Part shown: positions 19,229 to 35,738 of the stretch, piece by piece
Position numbering within the stretch: position 1 is the stretch's first letter
How the letters are laid out: the number at the start of each line of letters is the position of its first letter
Assembly (NCBI GenBank): GCA_947372465.1
Contig: CANBTT010000002.1
Span: 1-64,000 of the forward strand
DNA from: Burkholderiales bacterium
GTDB lineage: Bacteria > Pseudomonadota > Gammaproteobacteria > Burkholderiales > Burkholderiaceae_C
Length of the DNA stretch: 64,000 nt
Reading direction: 5' to 3'
Notes under the pieces: generated by a model
The model's input: the letters and a program-made list of their open reading frames with translations, nothing else
Databases searched by the model: none
Told to the model about the DNA's origin: nothing
Made by a program: the position numbers and the translations under genes

Positions 19229-20188
19229 ATGCGAAGTTTATTTTTATATTTATTGATGTTCTTGCAAGTTTGTGTATGCGCCCATGCTCAAAATTTATCC
19301 TCTAAACCCGTAAGGATCGTGGTCGGGTTTGCCGCCGGGGGCGGCAGTGATTTTGTGGCTCGGGTTCTTGCTCAAGATCTCAGTTCTGTGTTGGGCCAAC
19401 AAGTCATCATAGACAACAAGGCTGGCGCGGGCGGTGCCGTGGCAGCTCGTTGGGTCGCGACTTCTGAACCTGATGGACAAACGCTGCTTTTAGGAAGTGC
19501 CGCAAATTTTGTGATCAATCCACTGTTGTCCAAGAACCTTCCGTATGAAACGAGCGATTTTCTGCCTGTCGCCGCAGTGGCGCGTTTCAGTTACGCGCTG
19601 TTGATTCGCAAGGACTTACCCATTCGAAGTGTTGCTGAGCTCATCGCATTTGCTAAGCAAAATCCAGAGGGTTTGACCATCGGGTCTGCTGGAAATGGCT
19701 CCAACACACATGTTGTTGCAACTGCTTTCATGTTCACAACGGGTACACATCTGCGTCACATCCCGTACAAAGGCACAGCCCCAGCCTTGACGGATTTGAT
19801 GGGTGGAACCATAGATGTTTTATTTGATTCAACGCCAACGGTTTATTCGATGATCAATGCAGGTGCACTCAGAGCCTTGGCTGTTACAGGTCCAGAGCGT
19901 GAGGCCGTTTTGGGAGATGTCGCCACGATTGCTGAATTGGGCTATAAGTCATTCAATGCAAGCAATTGGTTTGCAATTTTCGCACCGAAAAAAACACCAG
20001 TGGATACCATCAATAAGCTGAATCTCTCAATCCAAAAAACACTTCAGTTGCCCAAAGTCAGAAAGCAATACATCGATTCGGGCAATCAACCCATCCCAGG
20101 CAGCTCGGCTGAGCTCGATCAGTTGGTCAAGAGTGAAACGGCCAACTACAAAACCTTGTTAAGCAATGCCAAAATCACCCTTGATTGA
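19229..20188 (+). CDS. Bug-family tripartite tricarboxylate transporter receptor
   Basis: Periplasmic receptor, 319 residues, signal peptide MRSLFLYLLMFLQVCVCAHAQ. Motifs: VGFAAGGGSDFVARVLAQDL, IDNKAGAGGAVAARWV, PDGQTLLLGS, HIPYKGTAPALTDLMGG and a C-terminal segment AKITLD. It is followed by only 15 bases and then the convergent dienelactone hydrolase gene. Confidence 0.95.
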   Translation: MRSLFLYLLMFLQVCVCAHAQNLSSKPVRIVVGFAAGGGSDFVARVLAQDLSSVLGQQVIIDNKAGAGGAVAARWVATSEPDGQTLLLGSAANFVINPLLSKNLPYETSDFLPVAAVARFSYALLIRKDLPIRSVAELIAFAKQNPEGLTIGSAGNGSNTHVVATAFMFTTGTHLRHIPYKGTAPALTDLMGGTIDVLFDSTPTVYSMINAGALRALAVTGPEREAVLGDVATIAELGYKSFNASNWFAIFAPKKTPVDTINKLNLSIQKTLQLPKVRKQYIDSGNQPIPGSSAELDQLVKSETANYKTLLSNAKITLD

Positions 20189-21228: not shown

Positions 21229-22233
21229 ATGCTCAAGAACTCTTTGCAACTCAACATCAATCGACGTCAAGCAGTACAAATTTTAGGCGGATCTGCTTTG
21301 GGCTTAAGTGCAGCTCAAGCGACCGCTCAAAGTGATTGGCCCAGCAAACCTGTTCGTTGGATTGTTCCCTTTGCGACTGGTGGAACTTCCAATATTGTTG
21401 CCCGAGCCGTTGCCAATGAACTGAGCAAACAAATGGGCGTCCCATTTCTGATTGACAACAAAGGAGGAGGAGGAGGCGTGCCTTCGATGCAGGAGGTTGT
21501 GCGAACACCCGCAGACGGTTACACCTTGATATTGGGGCACATTGGATCCTTGGCTGTGAATCCAATCATTTATCCAGACAGTGGATACGATGTGAACAAA
21601 GACTTTGCACCTGTCACTTTGCTGGCCAAGGTGCCCAGTTTGTTTGTTGTCCACAAGGACGTGCCTGTCAAAGACTTCAAATCTTTCGTGAGTTACGTCA
21701 AAGCCCGTCCTGGTCAATTGAATTATGCGTCTGCTGGCAACGCCAGCGCGGGTCATCTTGCCATTGAGGCGCTGAAACTGGCGACGGGCTTGTTCATCAC
21801 CCATATTCCTTACCGAGGGACTGGTCCCGCATTGAACGATGTGTTGGCGGGGCGCATACAGATATTTTCTGCAGGTACACCCGCTTTGTTGCAGCACATC
21901 AGAAGTGGCTCTTTAAGATGCTTGGCGGTTGGAACGCAACATAGAATATCAGCCCTGCCCGATGTGCCGACAGTGGCTGAATGTGGCTATAAAAATTTTG
22001 AGACTGTGCAGTGGTATGGCTTAAATGTCAGATCCGGTACACCTGTTGAGATCATCACCAAGCTTCAACAAGAGTCTGCCAAGGCTTTAAACGCCCCTGA
22101 ATTAGCGGCTCGATTTGAGTCTGAAAGTGCAGTGACCGGTGGCGGGCCTGCTTCAGAATACGCCCGCTTTATTCAACAAGAGCAAGCCAGGTGGCGTGAG
22201 GTTGTGATTAGAGGTCAAATCAAACCTGCGTAA
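21229..22233 (+). CDS. Bug-family tripartite tricarboxylate transporter receptor
   Basis: Periplasmic receptor, 334 residues, with a twin-arginine-like signal (NINRRQAVQILGGSALGLS, cleavage near AQS). Motifs: PFATGGTSNIVARAVANEL (Asn replaces the usual Asp in GGTSD), IDNKGGGGGVPSMQEV, ADGYTLILGH, HIPYRGTGPALNDVLAG, DVPTVAECGY. Divergent from the dienelactone hydrolase. Confidence 0.95.
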   Translation: MLKNSLQLNINRRQAVQILGGSALGLSAAQATAQSDWPSKPVRWIVPFATGGTSNIVARAVANELSKQMGVPFLIDNKGGGGGVPSMQEVVRTPADGYTLILGHIGSLAVNPIIYPDSGYDVNKDFAPVTLLAKVPSLFVVHKDVPVKDFKSFVSYVKARPGQLNYASAGNASAGHLAIEALKLATGLFITHIPYRGTGPALNDVLAGRIQIFSAGTPALLQHIRSGSLRCLAVGTQHRISALPDVPTVAECGYKNFETVQWYGLNVRSGTPVEIITKLQQESAKALNAPELAARFESESAVTGGGPASEYARFIQQEQARWREVVIRGQIKPA

Positions 22234-22361: not shown

Positions 22362-22382
22362 ATTGCACCATATAAGTGCAAT
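22362..22382. promoter_or_regulatory. Inverted repeat ATTGCAC-N7-GTGCAAT
   Basis: Perfect 7-bp arms with spacer CATATAA, about 170 bases upstream of the BMP gene. Spacing of half-sites by roughly two helical turns centre to centre suits a dimeric regulator. Confidence 0.4.
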
Positions 22383-22481
22383 CCCATTGGGTTTTCAAAA
22401 AAGACAGGCATTAACCCGCATAGATTGAATAATTAAGTACTCTTTATATATGTTTTAAAAGACGGCACAGAGATTGCTCTG

Positions 22482-22554: not shown

Positions 22555-23673
22555 ATGCAAAAAAGTCTTTGGAATCGTCGTGAATGGCTTTTGGGTTCTG
22601 GTTCACTGGGTGCAGGACTATTGGCCGGTGGATTGCCTGGATTGAGCAGTGCTCAAACGGCGCTGACCGTCGGATTTATTTACGTAGGCCCCAAGGATGA
22701 CTATGGTTACAACCAAGCCCATGCGGAGTCTGCTGCTGCATTGAAGAAAATGCCTGGTATCAAGGTCATTGAAGAGGAAAGCGTTCCAGAGACTCAAGCC
22801 GTTCAAAAGACCATGCAAGGCATGATTTCTCAAGATGGCGCAACACTTTTGTTTCCCACTTCTTTTGGTTATTTTGACCCCCATATTTTGGCCATTGCTG
22901 CAAAGAACCCAAATGTTCGCTTTGCTCACTGTGGTGGTTTGTGGAGCAAAGACAAGCATCCTTTGAACACAGGTAGTTATTTTGGTTACATTGATGAAGG
23001 TCAATACTTGAATGGTGTGATCGCCGGTCACATGACCAAAAGCAAAAAATTGGGCTTCATTGCGGCCAAACCCATTCCTCAAGTATTGGCAAACATCAAT
23101 GCATTCACCTTGGGTGCACGTTCAGTTAACCCTGCAATCACAACAACGGTGATTTTCACAGGTGACTGGTCTCTGCCAGTCAAGGAAGCAGAAGCGACCA
23201 ACAGCTTGGCTGACCAAGGGGTTGATGTGTTTACAATGCACGTTGACTCACCCAAAGTGATTGTTGAAACTGCTGCAAAGAAGGGTAAATTTGTTTGCGG
23301 TTACCACGCCAACCAATCTAAATTGGCGCCACAGGCTTACCTTACTGGTGCCGAGTGGAATTGGATCACTGCTGTCAACACCATGGTCGATGCAGCCAAA
23401 ACAGGCAAACCACATCCAAACTTTATCCGTGGCGGTTTAAAAGACGGATTCATCAAAACTTCACCTTATGGTTCAATGGTTCCTGAGGCTGCAAGGAAAA
23501 ATGCAGATGCAGTTAAAGCAAAGATGCTCAAAGGTGAATTCTCTATTTTTGCCGGCGAACTCAAAGACAACACTGGCAAAATTGTGATTCCTAAAGGTGC
23601 GGCCTTTAAGCAAACGGCTATTGAACTCGAATCAATGAATTACCTTGTTGAAGGTGTCATTGGTAAGTTTTAA
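22555..23673 (+). CDS. BMP-family ABC transporter substrate-binding protein
   Basis: Periplasmic receptor of the basic-membrane-protein (BMP/PnrA) family, 372 residues, which usually binds nucleosides or related N-heterocycles. Signal peptide is twin-arginine-like (NRREWLLGSGSLGAGLLAGG, cleavage near SSAQ). Typical segments are VGFIYVGPKDDYGYNQAHAE, GSYFGYIDEGQYLNGVIAGHM and the hinge ADQGVDVFTMHVDSP. GAGG lies before the ATG. It is first in an operon of transporter and amide-hydrolase genes; given those partners, the ligand may be biuret, triuret or another urea derivative rather than a nucleoside. Confidence 0.92.
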   Translation: MQKSLWNRREWLLGSGSLGAGLLAGGLPGLSSAQTALTVGFIYVGPKDDYGYNQAHAESAAALKKMPGIKVIEEESVPETQAVQKTMQGMISQDGATLLFPTSFGYFDPHILAIAAKNPNVRFAHCGGLWSKDKHPLNTGSYFGYIDEGQYLNGVIAGHMTKSKKLGFIAAKPIPQVLANINAFTLGARSVNPAITTTVIFTGDWSLPVKEAEATNSLADQGVDVFTMHVDSPKVIVETAAKKGKFVCGYHANQSKLAPQAYLTGAEWNWITAVNTMVDAAKTGKPHPNFIRGGLKDGFIKTSPYGSMVPEAARKNADAVKAKMLKGEFSIFAGELKDNTGKIVIPKGAAFKQTAIELESMNYLVEGVIGKF

Positions 23674-23696
23674 GCATTGAACTTGATAGAGCCAAT

Positions 23697-24776
23697 ATGA
23701 GCAATAAAAATCTAAGTCATTTGGAGGGTTTCGTTCTTCCTTTTGTTGCTCTTATTGGCTCGCTTTTTGTATTTGGATTGTTTGTTTTCATGTCAGGGAA
23801 AAGTCCCGTAGAGGCATGGAAGTTGTTATTTCTTGGTGCTTTTGGTGACGCTTTTTCTATTCAAAACACACTGCAACGATCAGCACCATTGATGCTCACT
23901 GCACTTTGTGTGGCCATTCCAGCCAATGCGGGATTGACCGTGATTGGTGGTGAGGGTTCTTTGTTGGTGGGCGCGTTGGCATGCTCTTCAGTGCCCTATT
24001 TCTTTAACGTCCCCTTGAATACTGAGGGCACATGTATTTTGATGATTGCCTCATGTGTTGCTGGAGCTTGTTGGATGTCTTTGGTCGGGGTCATGCGTCA
24101 GTTCCGTGGCGTCAACGAGACCATCAGCAGTCTATTGCTGGCCTATTTGGCTGTTAATTTGTTCAAGCATTTGGTTGAAGGTCCAATGCGCGACCCAGGC
24201 AGCTTGAACAAACCTTCAACGTACCCATTGAATCCTGATTTGTTGATTGGTGGAATCGCTGGATATGATGTTCATTGGGGTTTGATTTGGGGTCTTGTAT
24301 TTTGTATTGTTGCATCATTTTGGCTGAAATTCACCACACATGGTTTTGCTACGAAAGTGGTTGGCGGTAATCCAAGAGCGGCAAGTTTTGTTGGGCTACC
24401 CACCAACGCCTTGATCATTACATCTTGCGCTCTTGGGGGGGCGGCAGCTGGATTGGCCGGCGGATTAGAAATCGCAGCTATTCATACAGCGTCAAGCGCA
24501 TCGGTGATTGCGGGTTTGGGTTACACAGGCATTTTGGTCAGCTTTGCAGCTAGGCACAAACCAATGATTATTGTGCCTGTGGCAATTATTTTGGGTGGCT
24601 TCGGCGCGGCGGGCAGCTTGCTTCAAAGGCGTTTAGGTTTGCCTGATGCCTCTATACAGGTTTTGATGGGATTTGCTTTTATATTTATTTTGGCGGCCGA
24701 GTCTGCTCGAGGCAGAATTCAATGGACTCGAATTTGGAGTTTCCAGTCCACGCCTGGTACTTTGGAAGTGAAGTAA
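23697..24776 (+). CDS. BMP-type ABC transporter permease 1 (YufP-like)
   Basis: Membrane permease of 359 residues with about nine hydrophobic segments. It contains the BPD_transp_2 landmarks VIGGEGSLLVGALA, FRGVNETISSLLLAYLAVN and the cytoplasmic FATKVVGGNPRAASFVGLPTN loop. It follows the BMP gene by 23 bases and its stop shares one base with the start of permease 2 (TAATG), so the two are probably made in equal amounts. Confidence 0.93.
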   Translation: MSNKNLSHLEGFVLPFVALIGSLFVFGLFVFMSGKSPVEAWKLLFLGAFGDAFSIQNTLQRSAPLMLTALCVAIPANAGLTVIGGEGSLLVGALACSSVPYFFNVPLNTEGTCILMIASCVAGACWMSLVGVMRQFRGVNETISSLLLAYLAVNLFKHLVEGPMRDPGSLNKPSTYPLNPDLLIGGIAGYDVHWGLIWGLVFCIVASFWLKFTTHGFATKVVGGNPRAASFVGLPTNALIITSCALGGAAAGLAGGLEIAAIHTASSASVIAGLGYTGILVSFAARHKPMIIVPVAIILGGFGAAGSLLQRRLGLPDASIQVLMGFAFIFILAAESARGRIQWTRIWSFQSTPGTLEVK

Positions 24777-25696
24777 TGGACGCGCAAACCATGCAATTTT
24801 TATTTTGGGCGGTTTTAGGTGGTGCTATACGGGTAGGAACCCCGTTTCTATTTGTAAGCCTAGGAGAGTGCATCACTGAAAAATCAGGTCGTATAAATTT
24901 GGGCTTAGAAGGTGTTTTGGTTTTGTCTGCCATGACCGCTTTTTGGGTTGCAAATTTCTTTAACTCCCCTTGGATGGGGGTTTTGGGCGGTGCTTGTGTG
25001 GGTGGACTCTTTGCAACTATTCATGGCGCGATTTGCTCAACCAGAAAAGTCAATGACATTGCAATGGGAATTGCATGCATGATGTTGGGCATTGGCGCCG
25101 CCTTCTATATAGGCAAGCCCCTCATACAACTCAATGCCATTTCACTGCCCACCCTGAATCTTGGTGGATGGAGCGATTCAGATCAAATCAAATCTGCTTT
25201 GGACATCAATGTGCTCTTTCCTATTGGTATCTTGATCACCCTTTTGATGTCTTGGGGATTTAAAAATACAAAATGGGGGATGCTCATACGCATGGTGGGG
25301 GACTCGAGCGATGCTGCAAAAGCGCAAGGTGTATCAGTCAATCAGGTGAGGTTGATTTCAACAATCGTTGGTGGTGCAATTGCAGGTATTGGCGGCGCAT
25401 CGCTATCCCTTTATTACCCAGGCGGATGGAATGAAGGTTTATCCAGTGGACAAGGATTGATTGCTGTAGCGCTCGTCATTTTTGCAAAATGGAAACCGAC
25501 AAATTGCCTTTTTGCGGCGATGGTTTTTGGGGGGGCAGGTTCACTTGGACCTGCTTTGCAATCGGCCGGAATCAATGGGTATTATTATTTGTTCAATGCT
25601 GTACCGTATTTTTTGACACTGGTGATTTTGATCATAACATGTGCCCCACAACGTGCTTTAAGAGGTGCGCCTTCTGAGTTGGGAAAAAGTCAGTAA
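24776..25696 (+). CDS. BMP-type ABC transporter permease 2 (YufQ-like)
   Basis: Second membrane permease, 306 residues. I start at the ATG 24776 (MDAQTMQFLFWAVLGGAIR), which overlaps the previous stop and has GGAAG upstream; an earlier in-frame ATG at 24722 lies inside the previous gene. Motifs: GECITEKSGRINLGLEGVLVLSAM, RKVNDIAMGIACMMLG and LIRMVGDSSDAAKAQGVSVNQVR, all usual for the second nucleoside-type permease. Completes the channel with the 23697 gene product and the ATPase at 27440. Confidence 0.93.
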   Translation: MDAQTMQFLFWAVLGGAIRVGTPFLFVSLGECITEKSGRINLGLEGVLVLSAMTAFWVANFFNSPWMGVLGGACVGGLFATIHGAICSTRKVNDIAMGIACMMLGIGAAFYIGKPLIQLNAISLPTLNLGGWSDSDQIKSALDINVLFPIGILITLLMSWGFKNTKWGMLIRMVGDSSDAAKAQGVSVNQVRLISTIVGGAIAGIGGASLSLYYPGGWNEGLSSGQGLIAVALVIFAKWKPTNCLFAAMVFGGAGSLGPALQSAGINGYYYLFNAVPYFLTLVILIITCAPQRALRGAPSELGKSQ

Positions 25697-25724
25697 CCCT
25701 AAACATTAACTAACGAGGCTTTGT

Positions 25725-26738
25725 ATGAATGGTTTGAGTGGCTTGAATAAATCTCCATCTGGGGTTGTGGTTGGATTGGTCCAACTTCAATTGCCGTTGG
25801 TCGAGACGGTAGAACAATTATCAAATCAAACTGCGAAAATTGTGTCGATGGTTAAAAAGGCTCGCAACAGCTATCCACAAATGGACATGGTTGTTTTTCC
25901 TGAGTACGCATTGCACGGCTTATCAATGAGCACTGCAGATCAGTTGATGGTCAGTTTGGATGGCCCGGAGGTTCAAGCTTTTAAGAGAGCTTGTATTGAT
26001 CAGCGCATTTGGGGGTGTTTTTCAATAATGGAAAAAAATCCAAACGGCAACCCTTACAACACGGGTTTGATCATTGACGACAAAGGTGAACTTAAACTGT
26101 ACTACAGAAAATTTCATCCTTGGATCCCTGTAGAAGCTTGGGAGCCAGGAAACATGGGGATCCCTGTGATCACAGGCCCTAAAGGTTTGAAAATTGGTTT
26201 AATTATTTGTCATGATGGTATGTTTCCTGAGATGGCAAGGGAGTGCGCCTACAAGGGGGCAGAGTTAATGATCAGAACAGCAGGTTATACCGCGCCAATT
26301 CGTCATTCTTGGAAGATCACCAATCAGGCAAATGCTTTTCAAAATTTAATGGCAACCGCCAGTGTATGCCTTTGTGGCAGCGATGGAACCTTTGACTCTA
26401 TGGGAGAAGCCATGTTTTGTGATCATGAGGGCAATATTGTTTCCATGGGGGGAGGGCGAGTAGATGAAATAATTTGTTCTGAGGTGCGTGGAGATTTGAT
26501 TCGAGAAGCTCGGGCTCACTGGAGCGTGGAAAACAACATTTACCAACTCTACCACCGAGGTTATGTTGCTGTTAAGGGAGGCGCACAAGATTGCCCCTAT
26601 ACCTTTATGCAAGACATGGTCAGCGGAAACTACAAATTACCTTGGGATGACAATATTGTTCATAGAGATGGCGCATCCTGTGGATTTGATAAACCTACGC
26701 GTGAGTTTATTGGAAACGAGAAAAATCTTTTAGAGTGA
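25725..26738 (+). CDS. amiF: formamidase / aliphatic amidase, nitrilase superfamily
   Basis: Nitrilase-superfamily amidohydrolase of 337 residues, closely resembling bacterial formamidase AmiF as I remember it: FPEYALHG (Glu60), YYRKFHPWIPVEAWEPG (Lys129) and ICHDGMFPEMARECAYKGAEL (Cys162) give the Glu-Lys-Cys set, and ENNIYQLYHRGYVAVKGGAQD and YKLPWDDN match the C-terminal AmiF signature. It converts formamide, or possibly another small amide, to the acid and ammonia in the cytoplasm. Location between the transporter permeases and biuret hydrolase suggests a role in nitrogen release from the imported compound, but formamide is not a known intermediate of biuret breakdown. Confidence 0.88.
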   Translation: MNGLSGLNKSPSGVVVGLVQLQLPLVETVEQLSNQTAKIVSMVKKARNSYPQMDMVVFPEYALHGLSMSTADQLMVSLDGPEVQAFKRACIDQRIWGCFSIMEKNPNGNPYNTGLIIDDKGELKLYYRKFHPWIPVEAWEPGNMGIPVITGPKGLKIGLIICHDGMFPEMARECAYKGAELMIRTAGYTAPIRHSWKITNQANAFQNLMATASVCLCGSDGTFDSMGEAMFCDHEGNIVSMGGGRVDEIICSEVRGDLIREARAHWSVENNIYQLYHRGYVAVKGGAQDCPYTFMQDMVSGNYKLPWDDNIVHRDGASCGFDKPTREFIGNEKNLLE

Positions 26739-26750
26739 ATTGTAAATATC

Positions 26751-27437
26751 ATGAGTAAACACGTTAATTCAGAACCCTACCTCTGGCCTTTTGATGGTCA
26801 GTTAATACCCTCAAATACTGCACTGATCATCATTGACATGCAAACAGATTTCTGTGGTGTAGGAGGATATGTTGACAAAATGGGCTATGACCTTTCTTTG
26901 ACTCGTGCGCCAATTGAACCGATCAAAAAAGTGCTTGCCATGGCACGTCTAAAGGGGTTTCATGTCATTCACACGAGAGAGGGTCATCGACCTGATTTGA
27001 GTGATTTGCCCGCCAATAAAAGGTGGAGATCTCAACAAATTGGAGCGGGAATTGGAGATATGGGGCCATGTGGACGAATTCTCGTTAGGGGTGAGCCAGG
27101 GTGGGAAATTATCTCAGAGTTGGCGCCTTTGCCTGGTGAAGTCATTATTGACAAGCCTGGAAAGGGTTCGTTCTATGCGACCGATTTGGAGATGATTCTT
27201 CGTACGCGCAAAATTCAAAATCTAGTTCTTACAGGCATCACAACAGATGTTTGTGTACACACAACAATGCGTGATGCAAACGATCGGGGCTTTGAGTGTT
27301 TGATGTTGACCGATTGTACGGGGGCGACTGATTTCAATAACTATTTATCTGCGATCAGTATGATCAAGATGCAGGGTGGTGTTTTTGGGGCCGTCGCAAC
27401 CTCAGAGCAATTTATAAATTGTATTGAGAAGATCTGA
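26751..27437 (+). CDS. biuH: biuret amidohydrolase (isochorismatase-like cysteine hydrolase)
   Basis: Isochorismatase-fold hydrolase of 228 residues that matches the Rhizobium biuret hydrolase closely from memory ([26 protein letters not shown], YDLSLxxAPIEPIK, [24 protein letters not shown], [15 protein letters not shown]). Catalytic triad: Asp29, Lys135 and Cys168 ([17 protein letters not shown]). It hydrolyses biuret to allophanate and ammonia; the allophanate hydrolase needed next is encoded three genes downstream. It is separated from amiF by 12 bases and from the ATPase by 2 bases. Confidence 0.92.
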
Positions 27438-27439
27438 AT

Positions 27440-28987
27440 ATGAATCAAGCCGTCTCTATTGAAAGTTATAAACTATCTAAGAGATTTGGTGGTTTTTCTG
27501 CTCTCGAGGATGTGTCAATCAAAGTTCGTCCAGGAACTGTTCACGCACTGCTTGGGGAAAACGGGGCCGGTAAAAGTACATTTGTGAAGTGCTTGGTCGG
27601 ATACTACAAGAGCGATGGTGGTGCTGTTTTATTGGACGAGCGTGAAGTAAAAATTGACTCACCTACAGATGCTAGAAGTCATGGCATTGGTATGGTCTAC
27701 CAACATTTCACGGTCGTACCTGGAATGACGGTTGCTGAAAACTTGCTACTTTCACTAGGTGAAATTCCAAATGTAATACATTGGGGAAAAGTTCGCGATA
27801 AGCTTTCTGCATTTATGAATACTGCACCATTCAAGTTGGATTTGGATGCGACACCATTGGATTTATCTGCGGGTGAGAAACAAAAACTCGAAATTTTGAA
27901 GCAAATTTTGCTCAATCCGCGTTTGTTGATTTTGGATGAGCCGACCTCGGTTTTGACGCCAGATGAAGCAGATGAGGTGCTTTTTGCATTGAGACAAAGA
28001 GCACACCAACAAGAATGCTCGATCATAATGATCACGCACAAATTTCGCGAAGTCATGTCTTATTGCGACGATGTATCTGTTTTAAGGCGTGGTCGCTTGG
28101 TGATAAGCAAAGCTGTGGCATCGACCAATTCTGATGAGTTGGCAAGTGCAATGATTGGTCAAACGGAAAATCAATCGGTTGAAAGTCACTCAACGCAAAA
28201 GTTGAAGATGACTCAAACAAGTCATCAAGCTTTGAAAGTGGTAAATTTAACAGCCTTTGGAGACCGAGGAGAACTGGCACTTAATGACATCAGTTTTGAA
28301 GTTGGGAAGGGTGAAATTCTTGGCTTTGCGGGTGTTTCAGGCAATGGTCAAAAAGAACTCTTAGAAGCGCTAACTGGGCAACGAAAAATACTGTCGGGGA
28401 AGGTGTTGGTCGATGAACAGGCCTTTCATGCTACCAGATCACAAAATCAAAATCTTTTGGTAAGAGGTTTACCTGAAGAGCCATTGATCAATGCTTGCGT
28501 TAGGGGAATGAGTGTTTTCGAAAATCTGGCTCTTAGAGAGTTTGATGAAAATGAATTTTCTCAATATGGTTTGATCAATTGGACCAAGCTTAGGAAAAGG
28601 GCGCAAAACGCAATTACTGAGTACTCAATTAAAACCTCTGGAATTGAATCCTCAATTGGTGACCTTTCAGGAGGAAATGTTCAGCGCGTTGTACTTGCTC
28701 GTGAATTTTCTAAGCCGGCGAATGTTTTATTGGTATGTAATGCAACCTTTGGATTAGATTTTGCAGCAACTCAAGAAATACGAAATCGTTTAATCACAGC
28801 GAGAAATCAAGGAACTGCTATCTTGCTTATCAGCGAGGATTTGGACGAAATATTGGAATTGTCAGACAGAATTGCAGTCGTTAGCTCAGGCAAAATTGTT
28901 TATACAGTTGCTTCAAATTTAGCCAATAGAAAAACACTCGGATCATTTATGGCAGGAGAGCGAGAAGTAATGGAGGCAATCAATTGA
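27440..28987 (+). CDS. BMP-type ABC transporter ATP-binding protein (two-domain)
   Basis: Double ATPase of 515 residues energising the BMP-type importer. First domain: Walker [10 protein letters not shown], signature LSAGEKQ, Walker [12 protein letters not shown], switch His ITHKF. Second domain: GVSGNGQKE in place of a full Walker [15 protein letters not shown] signature, and [15 protein letters not shown] where a Walker B glutamate is expected. The degenerate second site (VCNATFG instead of xxDEPT) is common in sugar/nucleoside-type ATPases. The end overlaps the next start by four bases (TTGA). Confidence 0.93.
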
Positions 28988-29664
28988 GCCAACATATTGA
29001 TATTGAATCAGCTCAGCCCTTTCCATTTTCGCTTTCAATTCATTCTGCTGCGTTAATAATTATTGACATGCAACGCGATTTTGTAGAGCCTGGAGGGTTT
29101 GGCGAAAGTCTGGGAAATGAAGTTAAAACACTTCAAGACATTGTTCCGGCTGTTAAAAATGTACTTGACCGTTGGCGTGAAAGGGATGGCTTAGTCATTC
29201 ACACCCGAGAGTCGCACCTGCCAGATTTAACGGATTGTCCTGTTTCCAAACGCGATCGTGGCAATCCCAAGTTGAGAATTGGTGATGTAGGACCTATGGG
29301 ACGAATTTTAGTCCGTGGTGAGCCAGGAAACGAAATCATTGATGTCCTACGTCCATTTGAAAATGAGCTTGTCATTGATAAGCCAGGCAAGGGGGCTTTT
29401 TACGGCACGGATCTTCATCGTTTGCTACAAAGTCTCGGAATTGATCAGTTGATCTTTATGGGTGTTACAACTGAGGTCTGTGTTCAAACTTCGATGAGAG
29501 AAGCAAATGATAGAGGTTATGAGTGCTTGCTCTTAGAAGATTGTACGGCAAGTTATTTCCCACATTTTAAAGACATGACCATCGATATGATAACTGCACA
29601 GGGGGCAATTGTAGGGTGGGCGTGCAATTCAAAAGAATTTTTAGAATCGATTAAATTAAAATGA
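28984..29664 (+). CDS. isochorismatase-like cysteine hydrolase, candidate triuret hydrolase (TrtA-like)
   Basis: Paralogue of the biuret hydrolase in the same operon, 226 residues, triad Asp28, Lys133 and Cys166 ([17 protein letters not shown]). It keeps the [17 protein letters not shown] and [14 protein letters not shown] segments but lacks the [14 protein letters not shown] block that marks BiuH. Known pathway: TrtA converts triuret to carboxybiuret and its gene is clustered with biuH; that context and the AtzH-like gene downstream support the call. Start is TTG at 28984, with GGAGG seven bases upstream and no in-frame ATG before the conserved fold; it overlaps the ATPase stop (TTGA). A ureidoacrylate-type hydrolase remains an alternative. 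Confidence 0.7.
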
Positions 29665-31457
29665 TTAATCAATTGTTTACCTTGAGTGAATGGAAGGCAG
29701 CTTATGAATTACCAAATTCAGATGTCAAGTCTACTTTGCATCAACTTCTAATGAGTCTTGATAAGAGCGACCCAGCTTGGATCAGTATTTGTTCAAAAGA
29801 GTATCTTGATGCTCAACTTCAATACCTTGAATCCTTGGATCGATCTGAATGCCCGCTTTACGGTATACCCTTTGCTGTCAAGGACAATATTGACGCGCTT
29901 GGTTTTGTAACTACAGCAGCCTGTCCTGAATTTGCTTATGCTCCAAAAGAAAATGCAACTTTGGTATCTCGTTTGCAACTTGCTGGTGCAATATTGATTG
30001 GTAAAACTAATTTAGATCAATTCGCAACAGGTTTAGTGGGTGTTAGATCTCCATATGGGCACGTGCCCAATTCATTCAATAATCAATTCATCAGTGGTGG
30101 CTCTAGTTCAGGTTCAGCCTCAGTCGTGGCTCGTGGTATTGTGCCTTTTGCAATTGGGACGGATACAGCTGGTTCTGGTCGAATTCCTGCTGGTTTCAAT
30201 AACATTGTAGGTATGAAACCAACGCCGGGCTCAGTACCAATGAAGGGTGTATTGCCTGCTTGTAGGACAATTGATGTGTTTTCAATTTTTGCCTTGACTG
30301 CTGTCGATGCAGCCGCAGTTTTAAGCTTACTTCAAGGCACGGATCAAGAGCCTACTTTTAATTCAGTGAGCTACAAGCCGGGTTGGTTCGGCAGTGGGGA
30401 TAGAAGGCTAAAGGTTGGCATTCCGAAGAGTGTTCAATGTGATGAACGTGTTGGTTATCAAACTGCCTTCAAAACATCCATTGGGAAACTGACTGACTTG
30501 GGACTGGATTGCATTGAAATTGATATGTCTGTTCTCAATGAAGTTGCGAAATTACTTTATGATGGTCCTTGGGTATCTGAGCGGTACTCTGTAATCCAAG
30601 GAATTCTTGCATCAAACCCAAATGACATCGATCAAACGGTTAAACAAGTCATAGAAAAAGCCATTAATTTTGATTCAAAGGACACTTTCAATGCGATGTA
30701 TCGTCTTGCTGCATTAAAAGTCGAATCTAAAAAGATTTGGGATGAGATTGATGTTTTGATGGTACCTACAGCACCAACTCTACCAACATTAAATGAGTTA
30801 AAGCTTGAGCCAATCAAGAAAAACTCTGAGCTTGGCCTGTACACAAATTTTGTGAATTTATTGGGTTGGTCCGCCATCGCAGTTCCTTCAGAAATTACCC
30901 CAATGGGTTTGCCGTTTGGTGTAACTTTTATTGCGCCAGGTGGTTCTGAATACGCATTGTCTCAATTGGCGGTAAAGTGGCAAAAACACTCTGGGCTTCA
31001 ACTCGGTTCAAATTTACGATCTTTTAACCATGATGATGGAGTGACAAAATCAATGCCCACAGTAGAGTCTTCGATACAGATTGCTGTTGTTGGAGCACAC
31101 TTGAAGGGCTTCCCACTGCATTGGCAACTCATTGAAAGAAATTGTAAATTTGTAAAAACCGCTAAAACTGCTAAGTCATATAAACTGGTTGCATTGGGTT
31201 CAACTGTACCTGCAAAGCCTGGACTCATTAGGGTTGATAAAGAGGGCGCATGCATTGAGGTAGAAATGTATGAAATGCCGACTTGTGAAATAGGTTCTTT
31301 CTTTGGCCTTATTCAACAACCTCTTGGACTGGGTTCTATTGAATTGGATGATGGAAAATGGGTAAAAGGTTTTATATGTGACTCAACTGCTTTGTCGCAT
31401 TCAAAGGATATCAGTACCTTTGGGGGGTGGCGGAAATATTCGGAGTCTCTCTCATGA
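29661..31457 (+). CDS. atzF: allophanate hydrolase (AtzF/DUR1,2-type, two domains)
   Basis: A 598-residue enzyme. The N-terminal amidase domain has Lys74 (FAVKDN), the GGSSSGSA serine loop at 146-153 and nucleophile Ser172 in [12 protein letters not shown]; residues from about 470 form the allophanate-hydrolase C-terminal domain ([44 protein letters not shown]). Full-length AtzF-type proteins with this second domain decarboxylate the product, giving two ammonia and two CO2 from allophanate. It overlaps the previous gene by ATGA and the next by ATGA. Confidence 0.93.
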
Positions 31458-31846
31458 CCTATGATTTTGTTAATTTACCGACAGTTGTTGAAGACATCAC
31501 TAGAGTTTTCTACGAATATGAAAAAGCCTTGATGTGCAATGATGTCGTTGCTTTGAGAAATTATTTTTGGGATGATCCAGGTGTGACTCGTTATGGCATT
31601 GCAGATAAGCAATGGGGAATAGATGCTTTGGACGAATACCGAAAATCAGTTCCTTTTCCTAATTTTACGCGTGAGCTTTTTGGTTTAAGGGTTACCACAA
31701 TTGGCGAAAACATGGCAACTGTGCAAGTTGAATTCATTCGAACTGACAGTCCCTTAAGAGGCTTTCAAAGCCAGACTTGGGTACGTTTTGACTCAGTCTG
31801 GAAAATCATCTCTGCCCACGTTAGTATGATTCCATGGAAGACATAA
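31454..31846 (+). CDS. AtzH-like (DUF3225, NTF2-fold) protein
   Basis: A 130-residue cone-fold (NTF2/SnoaL-like) protein of the AtzH type, recognised by FWDDPGVTRYGIADKQWGIDALDEYR and SQTWVRFDSVWKIISAHVSMI. AtzH-type genes accompany cyanuric acid and biuret pathways, where a role in decarboxylating carboxylated urea intermediates has been proposed. In this operon it could act on carboxybiuret released by the TrtA-like enzyme. Start chosen at ATG 31454, which overlaps the allophanate hydrolase stop (ATGA); an in-frame codon at 31427 would add nine residues inside that gene. Confidence 0.85.
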   Translation: MTYDFVNLPTVVEDITRVFYEYEKALMCNDVVALRNYFWDDPGVTRYGIADKQWGIDALDEYRKSVPFPNFTRELFGLRVTTIGENMATVQVEFIRTDSPLRGFQSQTWVRFDSVWKIISAHVSMIPWKT

Positions 31847-31847
31847 G

Positions 31848-32600
31848 ATGTTGGTTGAAACACTTAGAAAAACGAGCACACTTTCTGTGCAGCAAGGTCA
31901 ATGTTTTAAAGGCTCGTCGTCACTAGCTCAACAAGCATTTGAGTCAATCAAGGATTTAATTTTTAATTTTGAATTGATTCCTGGCGAACGTTTTTCTGAG
32001 GCTGATTTAACTCAACGATTGAATATCAGTCGAACCCCATTGCGACAAGCGCTTCAACAATTGGAGCAGCAGGGTTTTTTGCAAGTATTGCCAAAAATGG
32101 GTTGGTTTGTTGCTCCTATTGATTTCGGTGCAATTGATGAGCTTTATGATTTTAGAATTTTGCTTGAGATGAATGCTGTTGGGGAATTGATTGATTTAGG
32201 GAAAACAGCTTTACTTGAACCTATGAATCAATTTTGGATTAAAGAATCTCATGAGTACACATCTGATTCAAGCCTTGTTGCTCAGCAAGATGAAATATTT
32301 CACTTTTCAATTATTGCTTGCGCTGGAAATAAAGAAATTTTAAAGATTTATCAACAAATTACAGATCGAATTAGATTAATAAGGAGGCTTGACTTTACAA
32401 AAAGTCAAAGACTAAATGCCACTTACACTGAGCATGCCGCCATACTTAAATCGATTAGAAGTAAACGCAAGGAGGAGGCGCAACGCTTGGTTAAAGCGCA
32501 TATCAATCAAAGTAAAATAGAAGTGAGGAAAATCACTTTGGATGAACTGTACAAGGCAAAAAATCGAGAAAAGGCGATTGGCAATCTACCGAGTGAGTAA
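31848..32600 (+). CDS. GntR-family transcriptional regulator, FCD subfamily
   Basis: Regulator of 250 residues, last gene of the biuret-type operon, one base after the AtzH-like stop. Winged helix-turn-helix at about 27-90 (FELIPGERFSEADLTQRL, ISRTPLRQALQQLEQQG) and an FCD helical ligand domain with HFSIIACAGNKE and TYTEHAAIL carrying metal-type histidines. It probably senses the imported substrate or allophanate and controls the promoter upstream of 22555. Confidence 0.9.
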   Translation: MLVETLRKTSTLSVQQGQCFKGSSSLAQQAFESIKDLIFNFELIPGERFSEADLTQRLNISRTPLRQALQQLEQQGFLQVLPKMGWFVAPIDFGAIDELYDFRILLEMNAVGELIDLGKTALLEPMNQFWIKESHEYTSDSSLVAQQDEIFHFSIIACAGNKEILKIYQQITDRIRLIRRLDFTKSQRLNATYTEHAAILKSIRSKRKEEAQRLVKAHINQSKIEVRKITLDELYKAKNREKAIGNLPSE

Positions 32601-34775: not shown

Positions 34776-35738
34776 ATTCGTACGCTACTCAATTTCTTTT
34801 TAATAGTCGTTCAGTTATTTATAGCCGATCTTTGCTTTTCACAAGTCTATCCGAGCAAACCTATTAAACTCATTGTTCCTTTTGGGCCTGGTGGCACGAC
34901 AGACTTGGTTGCGAGAACTCTAAGCCAAAAGCTTTCAATGAGCTTAGGGCAACAAGTGGTGGCTGAAAATAGAGTTGGAGCTGGCTCAACAATTGGAACA
35001 GATGTTGTTGCTAAATCAGCGCCAGACGGCTATACATTGTTAATGATTTCAACCACACATACAATCAGTCCATGGATTTACAAGAGTCTTCCCTATGATC
35101 CAATTTCAGGATTCACTGCGATTGCTAAATTGGTTGACTCACCCTATATTTTGGTTGTAAATCCTAAATTTCCTGGCCATTCGGTCAATGATTTAATTGT
35201 TTTGGCAAAAACTTCCAACAAGCCAATTAACTTTGCTTCGTCAGGAAATGGTAGTTCACAGCACTTATTGGGCGAGTTGTTCAATAGTCTTGCTGGAATT
35301 AAAATGCAACACATACCTTACAGAAGCAGTGCGGGTGCTACTACAGAGCTTGTTGGTGGAATGGTTGATGTTAGTTTTGTGGGTATTCCAAATGTTGTTG
35401 GCTTGGTTAAAACAGGCCAACTTCGAGCAATAGCAATCACTTCAAGCGAGAGAAACGCTCAACTTCCAGAGGTGCCAACAATGCAGGAGTCTGGATTGAG
35501 TAAGTTTGATGCTACTGTTTGGCTTGCTCTCGTGGGGCCTGCTGGTATGCCTAAGGATCTGGTCAATAAACTCAATCTTGAGGTGAACAAAATACTTTTG
35601 CAAGCTGAAGTTCAAAAAAACCTAATTCAAGCAGGCTTGATATCCACTCCGTCATCGCCAGAAACCATGACAATTTACCTTGCAGAGGAATATAAAAGAT
35701 GGGGTAAAGTCATTAATTCCTTGGATGTGAAACTTTAG
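34776..35738 (+). CDS. Bug-family receptor with non-canonical or frameshifted start
   Basis: From PSKPIKLIVPFGPGGTTDLVARTLSQ onward this is a full Bug receptor (ENRVGAGSTIGTDVV, PDGYTLLMI, HIPYRSSAGATTELVGG, EVPTMQESG). Its signal peptide (IRTLLNFFLIVVQLFIADLC) is encoded in frame, but no ATG, GTG or TTG lies before it. The choices are an ATT codon at 34776, seven bases after GGAG, or the ATG at 34763, which is one base out of frame across a run of five A at 34772-34776. The TTG at 34905 would delete the signal peptide and is unlikely. Coordinates here use the ATT. Confidence 0.75.
   Translation: MRTLLNFFLIVVQLFIADLCFSQVYPSKPIKLIVPFGPGGTTDLVARTLSQKLSMSLGQQVVAENRVGAGSTIGTDVVAKSAPDGYTLLMISTTHTISPWIYKSLPYDPISGFTAIAKLVDSPYILVVNPKFPGHSVNDLIVLAKTSNKPINFASSGNGSSQHLLGELFNSLAGIKMQHIPYRSSAGATTELVGGMVDVSFVGIPNVVGLVKTGQLRAIAITSSERNAQLPEVPTMQESGLSKFDATVWLALVGPAGMPKDLVNKLNLEVNKILLQAEVQKNLIQAGLISTPSSPETMTIYLAEEYKRWGKVINSLDVKL

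Follow-up and report, generated by a model that had tools for sequence, protein, structure and literature searches.

A BMP-type importer in a predicted biuret and triuret scavenging operon of a Burkholderiales bacterium

Ten plus-strand open reading frames filling positions 22555 to 32600 of a 64,000-nucleotide stretch of Burkholderiales DNA (contig CANBTT010000002.1 of assembly GCA_947372465.1; the whole stretch is referred to below as the window) are likely to form an operon that scavenges nitrogen from linear urea oligomers, with an importer bringing in biuret, probably triuret as well, and with regulation by sigma-54/NtrC. The genes are ordered as BMP-family binding protein, permease 1, permease 2, formamidase AmiF, biuret amidohydrolase BiuH, ATPase, triuret hydrolase TrtA, allophanate hydrolase AtzF, an AtzH-like protein and an FCD-type GntR regulator. 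The listing of reading frames and Pfam/NCBIfam searches confirmed the packed set and its order as described in an earlier note on this DNA, with gene names that largely agree. The genome measures 3.05 Mb, and the closest named matches of its TrtA are found in Comamonadaceae and other Burkholderiales.

Biuret and triuret are urea by-products that urea fertiliser carries onto farmland; oxidised uric acid can be a further source of triuret. In the proposed pathway, the BMP protein would catch periplasmic biuret, probably triuret too, and pass it on to the permease pair and its ATPase. TrtA would convert triuret to carboxybiuret, which could lose CO2 spontaneously or through the AtzH-like protein to give biuret. 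BiuH would then turn biuret into allophanate and AtzF would release ammonia and CO2 from it, both activities being established for the families. The formamidase may contribute ammonia from formamide or formyl-urea. Judging from the sites and the gene content, sigma-54/NtrC would switch the operon on under nitrogen limitation and the GntR protein would tune it.

Linkage of the importer to biuret and triuret genes

The transport genes comprise a PF02608 binding protein (22555..23673, 144 bits) with an N-terminus of twin-arginine type as judged by eye, two PF02653 permeases (23697..24776 and 24776..25696) and a double ATPase with two PF00005 stretches (27440..28987), which together make up a BMP (PnrA-like) ATP-binding cassette (ABC) importer set. 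An assignment to the putative B6 ABC transporter of NCBIfam (NF047927-30) was rejected, as the scores of 55, 135, 129 and 437 bits all lie under the respective cut-offs of 400, 400, 465 and 670 bits.

A search that started from the BMP protein in a family sample of 200 genomes provided a linkage test free of hydrolase-based choice. It gave 49 matches above 450 bits in 49 genomes, and a TrtA-type gene was present in each of these genomes. Within 15 kb of the high-scoring BMP gene, a TrtA-type gene was found in 47 of the 49 cases and a BiuH-type gene in 46; two of the 49 lie on contigs with neither gene and one (genome G111) is accompanied by a single chimeric hydrolase. Among the next 35 matches listed (200 to 450 bits), TrtA and BiuH occurred within the same distance in only three and two cases, respectively. 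This comparison covers 84 of the first matches listed, down to about 200 bits, with one row at 200.3 bits left out; rows above 230 bits were taken as TrtA-type places and rows below 214 bits as BiuH-type, the latter including some hydrolases other than BiuH. Counted from the hydrolase side, 58 TrtA-type places had a high-scoring BMP gene within 15 kb in 47 cases and a BiuH-type gene in 52. The genome-level table (49, 0, 9, 142) yields a Fisher p of 7e-38, which is overstated because the genomes are related.

In a phylum sample of 397 genomes, 30 BiuH places scored at least 369 bits, the window's own included, and 25 of them were fetched with 20 kb of sequence. The cassette BMP-permease-permease-BiuH-ATPase was present at 23 of these 25 loci, while none of nine loci picked from lower-scoring rows carried the cassette BMP, two of them holding a distant BMP (28%). 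TrtA lay within the fetched 20 kb in just 12 of the 23 cassette-bearing loci and BiuH in all, so that BiuH, more than TrtA, is the constant partner of the importer; biuret would accordingly be the substrate common to these loci. The comparison of biuH neighbourhoods proposed in the earlier note showed that the order BMP-permease-permease-(AmiF)-BiuH-ATPase, often followed by TrtA, recurs across Burkholderiales and other Pseudomonadota and is not due to chance.

The receptor pocket and the competing ligands

The closest solved relative of the BMP protein is AtzT (6pi5, E value 4e-63), the BMP-type protein of an operon located beside cyanuric acid genes (PMC6834077). AtzT binds purine bases, guanine with about 110 nM, and holds guanine via Ser97, Phe98, Glu165, Asn218 and Asn220 between Tyr45 and Trp194 (PMC6834077). 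The description of BMP importers as normally nucleoside-type systems, given in the earlier note, is imprecise in this respect. The pocket of the window protein reads Y52, S103, F104, Q176, N180, W205, H229 and D231. Compared with AtzT, the Tyr, Ser, Phe, Asn169 and Trp are kept, while Gln176 stands for Glu165 and His229 and Asp231 stand for Asn218 and Asn220; the guanine-binding trio of AtzT is thus replaced by Gln, His and Asp. As glutamine can both give and take a hydrogen bond, it would suit a ligand in which C=O and NH groups alternate.

Gln occupies AtzT position 165 in 84 of the 85 BMP rows with at least 60% identity, the exception being L116 with Thr; two contigs that entered from two collections (L024/L038 and L025/L039) are doubly counted in the locus, TrtA/BiuH residue, pocket, AtzH and AmiF tallies, and once in the promoter-zone count. 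Among 37 more distant rows Glu is the commonest residue (25) and Gln occurs in five. The other two BMP proteins of the same genome (L036, L037) keep Glu165; one of these two importers has genes for a circularly permuted ATP-grasp protein and an Alpha-E protein as neighbours. In a tree of 57 rows, a split with 100/100 support separated the Gln branch, to which the distant L118/L119 and L121/L124/L125 belong, from the purine-type BMPs, AtzT and 3s99. This tree omits L049, L076, L174, L175, L038, L039, the second row of L158, rows no longer than 300 residues and many operon rows that are nearly identical. A second origin of Gln165, considered for L118/L119 (39-40% identity, also Gln), was rejected, since a single branch of the tree has these two and the other Gln rows on one side, for which one origin is enough. 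Five rows inside the Gln branch carry Ile, Leu or Thr at position 165 (L116, L120, L122, L123 and L159). L120, L122 and L123, with 48-50% identity and Ile or Leu, showed no match to a cassette permease or to BiuH within their fetched 20 kb.

These residues bear directly on what else the importer might carry. One explanation holds that it still transports a purine, an oxidised purine or cyanuric acid, biuret and triuret being made in the cell from that compound or picked up by chance. The closest solved relatives do bind guanine, 2-hydroxyatrazine or adenine, the stacking pair equivalent to Tyr45/Trp194 is kept in the window protein, and the cyanuric acid gene AtzD sits in a Rhizobium cassette. 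However, none of the ten genes encodes a purine-degrading enzyme according to Pfam/NCBIfam, the guanine-binding Glu165 of the purine-type BMPs is replaced by Gln in the operon branch, and the conserved partner is BiuH; we regard this explanation as improbable. The location of the AmiF gene between permease 2 and BiuH, and the finding that all 30 AmiF places of the family sample have a BiuH-type gene no further than 3 kb away, could instead suggest that formamide, urea or another small amide is imported for AmiF, with the biuret genes as passengers. Many operons, however, keep the BMP importer with no AmiF beside it and BiuH is the partner that stays, which makes import for AmiF very unlikely.

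Several observations weigh against biuret and triuret as the ligands, or at least against the strength of the case. No such importer was seen at two of the 25 fetched BiuH loci (L166, L167). At six loci (L026, L040-L044) TrtA follows a purine-like BMP with Glu165 and has no BiuH beside it, so that the link to TrtA alone does not fix the ligand. In the two Burkholderiales operons inspected for it (L063, L107) a second importer, which reads like an NMT1/taurine type, is inserted between BiuH and the ATPase. Two operon BMPs, L116 and L159 (46% identity), have Thr instead of Gln. The 85 BMP rows do not represent independent evidence, because the loci were collected via the hydrolases and Gln165 arose once on the tree, and the tree tool issued a long-branch warning. 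The top fold match of the protein is 6pii, with TM-scores of 0.75/0.82 and 36% identity to AtzT in the fold search, and the model used is of moderate quality (predicted local distance difference test score, pLDDT, of 74). On a plasmid of Rhizobium leguminosarum WSM1325 the cassette order is kept, but AtzD is inserted ahead of the ATPase, behind BiuH, and TrtA is followed by a cupin; since this cassette holds AtzD, its importer could bind cyanuric acid as well. Finally, the nearest operons of the same genus (L038, L039) have weaker sigma-54 sites, with 8/11 positions.

Taken with these points, import of biuret and probably triuret, as put forward in the earlier note, is backed by a pocket specific to the branch and by the gene linkage seen in the family and phylum samples. 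The ligand itself is predicted, as no measurement of biuret binding or uptake by a bacterial importer was found among the open-licence papers listed by the searches. A broader proposal, which we put forward more tentatively and at somewhat less than even confidence, is that one BMP branch moved from purines to linear urea oligomers with the change of Glu165 to Gln, became the standing biuret/triuret uptake system of BiuH-owning Pseudomonadota and is spreading as a plasmid unit into Enterobacteriaceae.

The loci L026 and L040-L044 belong to Limnohabitans and related genomes; in L042, AtzF, a second importer and an AtzE-AtzH-GntR group follow.

Hydrolases, decarboxylation and promoter

BiuH (26751..27437) scores 418.5 bits on the curated model NF050097, above its cut-off of 370 bits, and carries the catalytic triad and BiuH-type residues at 13/13 positions separating BiuH from TrtA, reading DFYYEKKSDCTQV. 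By family and residues it is a biuret amidohydrolase, with predicted activity. The second hydrolase (28984..29664, TTG start) reaches only 238 bits on the same model, under the BiuH cut-off. Against solved relatives it scores 302.8 bits with 6xix, the structure of the Herbaspirillum triuret hydrolase TrtA (PMC7948467), versus 198.6 bits with the best BiuH. It reads DFFNEKKAECYQI, which is of TrtA type at 13/13 checked positions, including F35, N41, E160, Y187, Q202, I205 and A134 as well as the triad. The 13 positions are those named in PMC7948467 for catalysis, substrate binding or the distinction of TrtA and BiuH, the BiuH residues being taken also from the solved sequence. The second hydrolase is therefore assigned as TrtA, with predicted activity on triuret and, as expected of a TrtA, hardly any on biuret, and an operon with an unspecified second hydrolase was rejected on the basis of the 6xix score and the 13/13 residues. 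The naming of BiuH, AtzF, AmiF and the AtzH-like protein in the earlier note was borne out, while its second isochorismatase-like hydrolase needed this refinement. As the second hydrolase is TrtA at all checked positions and its neighbour BiuH at all, the steps from triuret via carboxybiuret, biuret and allophanate to ammonia appear to be encoded in one run.

AtzF (29661..31457), with an amidase and a C-terminal domain, scores 709 bits on TIGR02713 (cut-off 511), contains the PF21986 AH_C domain and is the sole protein of the genome to exceed that TIGR02713 cut-off. AmiF (25725..26738) scores 534.7 bits on NF009803 (cut-off 406) and has the Glu-Lys-Cys triad; ten checked residues, the triad included, are identical to Bacillus cereus formamidase 5g3o in the window protein and in 52 operon relatives. 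The AmiF gene lies directly beside BiuH or permease 2 in 46 of 53 collected loci and further away in the other seven. In the boldest form of the proposal, AmiF may deformylate formyl-biuret, which forms when oxidised purines break down; a literature search found no paper on formyl-biuret as an AmiF substrate.

Two further hydrolases of this group were encountered. The same genome encodes a third BiuH/TrtA relative (contig C92, L035 10278-10943) with residues DFYVEKYAECTEI, of neither BiuH nor TrtA type. In genome G111, the single chimeric hydrolase (L127 10944-11615) is BiuH-like over its first ~80 residues and TrtA-like over the remainder; the ATPase gene usually found between BiuH and TrtA is absent from this locus, and the closest ATPase that the rest of the genome offers is only 37% identical. 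This chimera is a natural test of biuret/triuret specificity.

The AtzH-like protein (31454..31846) matches PF11533, scores 122.5 bits on the HpxZ model (cut-off 135) and is a possible carboxybiuret decarboxylase. Compared with AtzH of Pseudomonas sp. ADP (PMC6219798), it shares the family, Tyr22 and Arg46, whereas Arg66 is lost and the operon has no AtzE. When copies from the collected loci were labelled by their nearest amidase gene, Arg66 was kept in 43/43 AtzE-side copies and lost in 21/21 AtzF-side copies, with four rows bearing no amidase label, among them the window and AtzH itself. The loss would fit a substrate with one carboxylate, yet it also looks like a clade difference. As proof of a mono-carboxylate substrate it was weakened, both by the resemblance of the two groups to two clades and by AtzH Arg66 variants not being among those reported as impaired in the available text of PMC6219798. 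The protein might instead act as in strain ADP, on 1,3-dicarboxyurea, or be a functionless leftover. The shared family, the conserved Tyr22 and Arg46 and the published variants favour a role as in strain ADP, while the missing AtzE, which would make the dicarboxyurea, the Arg66 split (though between clade-like groups) and the Pseudomonas luteola plasmid, in which the AtzH-like gene directly follows TrtA, argue against it; overall we hold this alternative to be the weaker one, though it deserves serious consideration. In L045 and similar Variovorax-type loci, AtzE and AtzH are encoded upstream and no AtzF was found downstream. Carboxybiuret, the reported substrate of AtzE (PMC6219798), is the product of TrtA, which may explain atzG-atzE-atzH clusters that have no atzD; beta-proteobacterial atzG-atzE-atzH clusters with ABC transporters and amidases were already noted in that paper.

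Upstream of the BMP gene, on the plus strand, an NtrC-type dyad TGCAC-N7-GTGCA (22364..22380) agrees at 10/10 positions and was equalled by 0/200 shuffles. A sigma-54-type site CGGCACAGAGATTGCT (22463..22478), 92 bp upstream of the BMP start, agrees at 10/11 positions, with a shuffle fraction of 0.005. Both were scored against the consensus motifs for NtrC and sigma-54. Sites with at least 9/11 positions located 70-130 bases ahead of the start were counted in other loci: they occurred in 35 of 45 BMP genes with no AtzH or amidase gene just upstream, in 9 of 33 BMP genes following such a gene and in 27 of 3120 random stretches. The gene rpoN is present in the genome. The operon thus reads as standing behind a good, putative sigma-54/NtrC-type promoter, and the atz operons are likewise sigma-54 dependent (PMC6834077).

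Operon layout, plasmid copies and known systems

The operon ends with the FCD-type GntR regulator (31848..32600; PF00392, PF07729). The start of permease 2 was corrected from 24722 to 24776, a position inferred from the resulting 1-base overlap, and that of the AtzH-like gene from 31427 to 31454. With these corrections four junctions overlap, by 1, 4, 4 and 4 bases, rather than the five counted earlier, and the remaining gaps are 23, 28, 12, 2 and 1 base. The flanking genes encode TctC-type receptors and dienelactone hydrolase-type, colicin V production-type and alpha/beta hydrolase proteins, and the ten genes therefore stand out as a unit. Three TctC-type solute receptors surround the operon in the window (19229-20188, 21229-22233 and 34905-35738).

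A nine-gene unit, AtzF-BMP-permease-permease-AmiF-BiuH-ATPase-TrtA-GntR (L177 4023-13646), was found over its full 9.6 kb and with at least 99.9% identity on 18 plasmids from Klebsiella, Enterobacter and Citrobacter, whose sources include wastewater, water, a drain and patients. Transposase genes lie on both sides of the unit in all three plasmids inspected and are named IS1 in two records; when the edges were checked for IS1 boundaries, just 94 identical bases matched. At megablast sensitivity, the unit had no match in 5,426 Escherichia coli genomes. The Pseudomonas luteola plasmid carries all ten gene types of the window operon, with AtzF moved to the front.

The earlier note knew of no described transport role of this kind. 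That assessment requires correction, as bmpA-nupABC was reported in 2025 beside trtA, biuH, trtB and atzF in an ammonia-oxidiser, with similar sets in comammox and archaea (PMC12625717), and AtzT is described in PMC6834077. The metagenome-assembled genomes of ammonia-oxidisers and comammox in PMC12625717 combine the enzymes and the transporter type on one contig as found here, with gntR also in a figure legend. Their transporter is labelled as nucleoside type, neither its ligand nor its pocket is taken up in the available text, and the word formamidase is absent from it, whereas the window operon has AmiF. Herbaspirillum sp. BH-1 and R. leguminosarum carry TrtA-BiuH-AtzF operons (PMC7948467) with the same three hydrolases and with 13/13 residues shared for TrtA and for BiuH, but their decarboxylase is TrtB while the candidate in the window is the AtzH-like protein; an importer is not dealt with in the available text of that paper. 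The R. leguminosarum clusters are also mentioned in PMC5806882, in the available text of which the word transporter is absent. The atzRSTUVW locus of Pseudomonas sp. ADP (PMC6834077) likewise places a BMP protein in a sigma-54 urea-type nitrogen locus; AtzT, however, binds guanine, ammeline and 2-hydroxyatrazine and differs from the window protein at the three pocket positions given above. Outside bacteria, biuret uptake by rice roots has been reported (PMC7700744).

Both the enzymes and their pairing with this importer are thus already known, and the predicted ligand class of the receptor is the testable point. The plasmid copies show the biuret/triuret trait in enterobacteria as one block, and the Gln165 branch tied to BiuH offers a testable marker for biuret uptake. 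If the ligand were fixed, importers labelled "nucleoside transporter" in nitrifier and rhizobial genomes could be renamed correctly.

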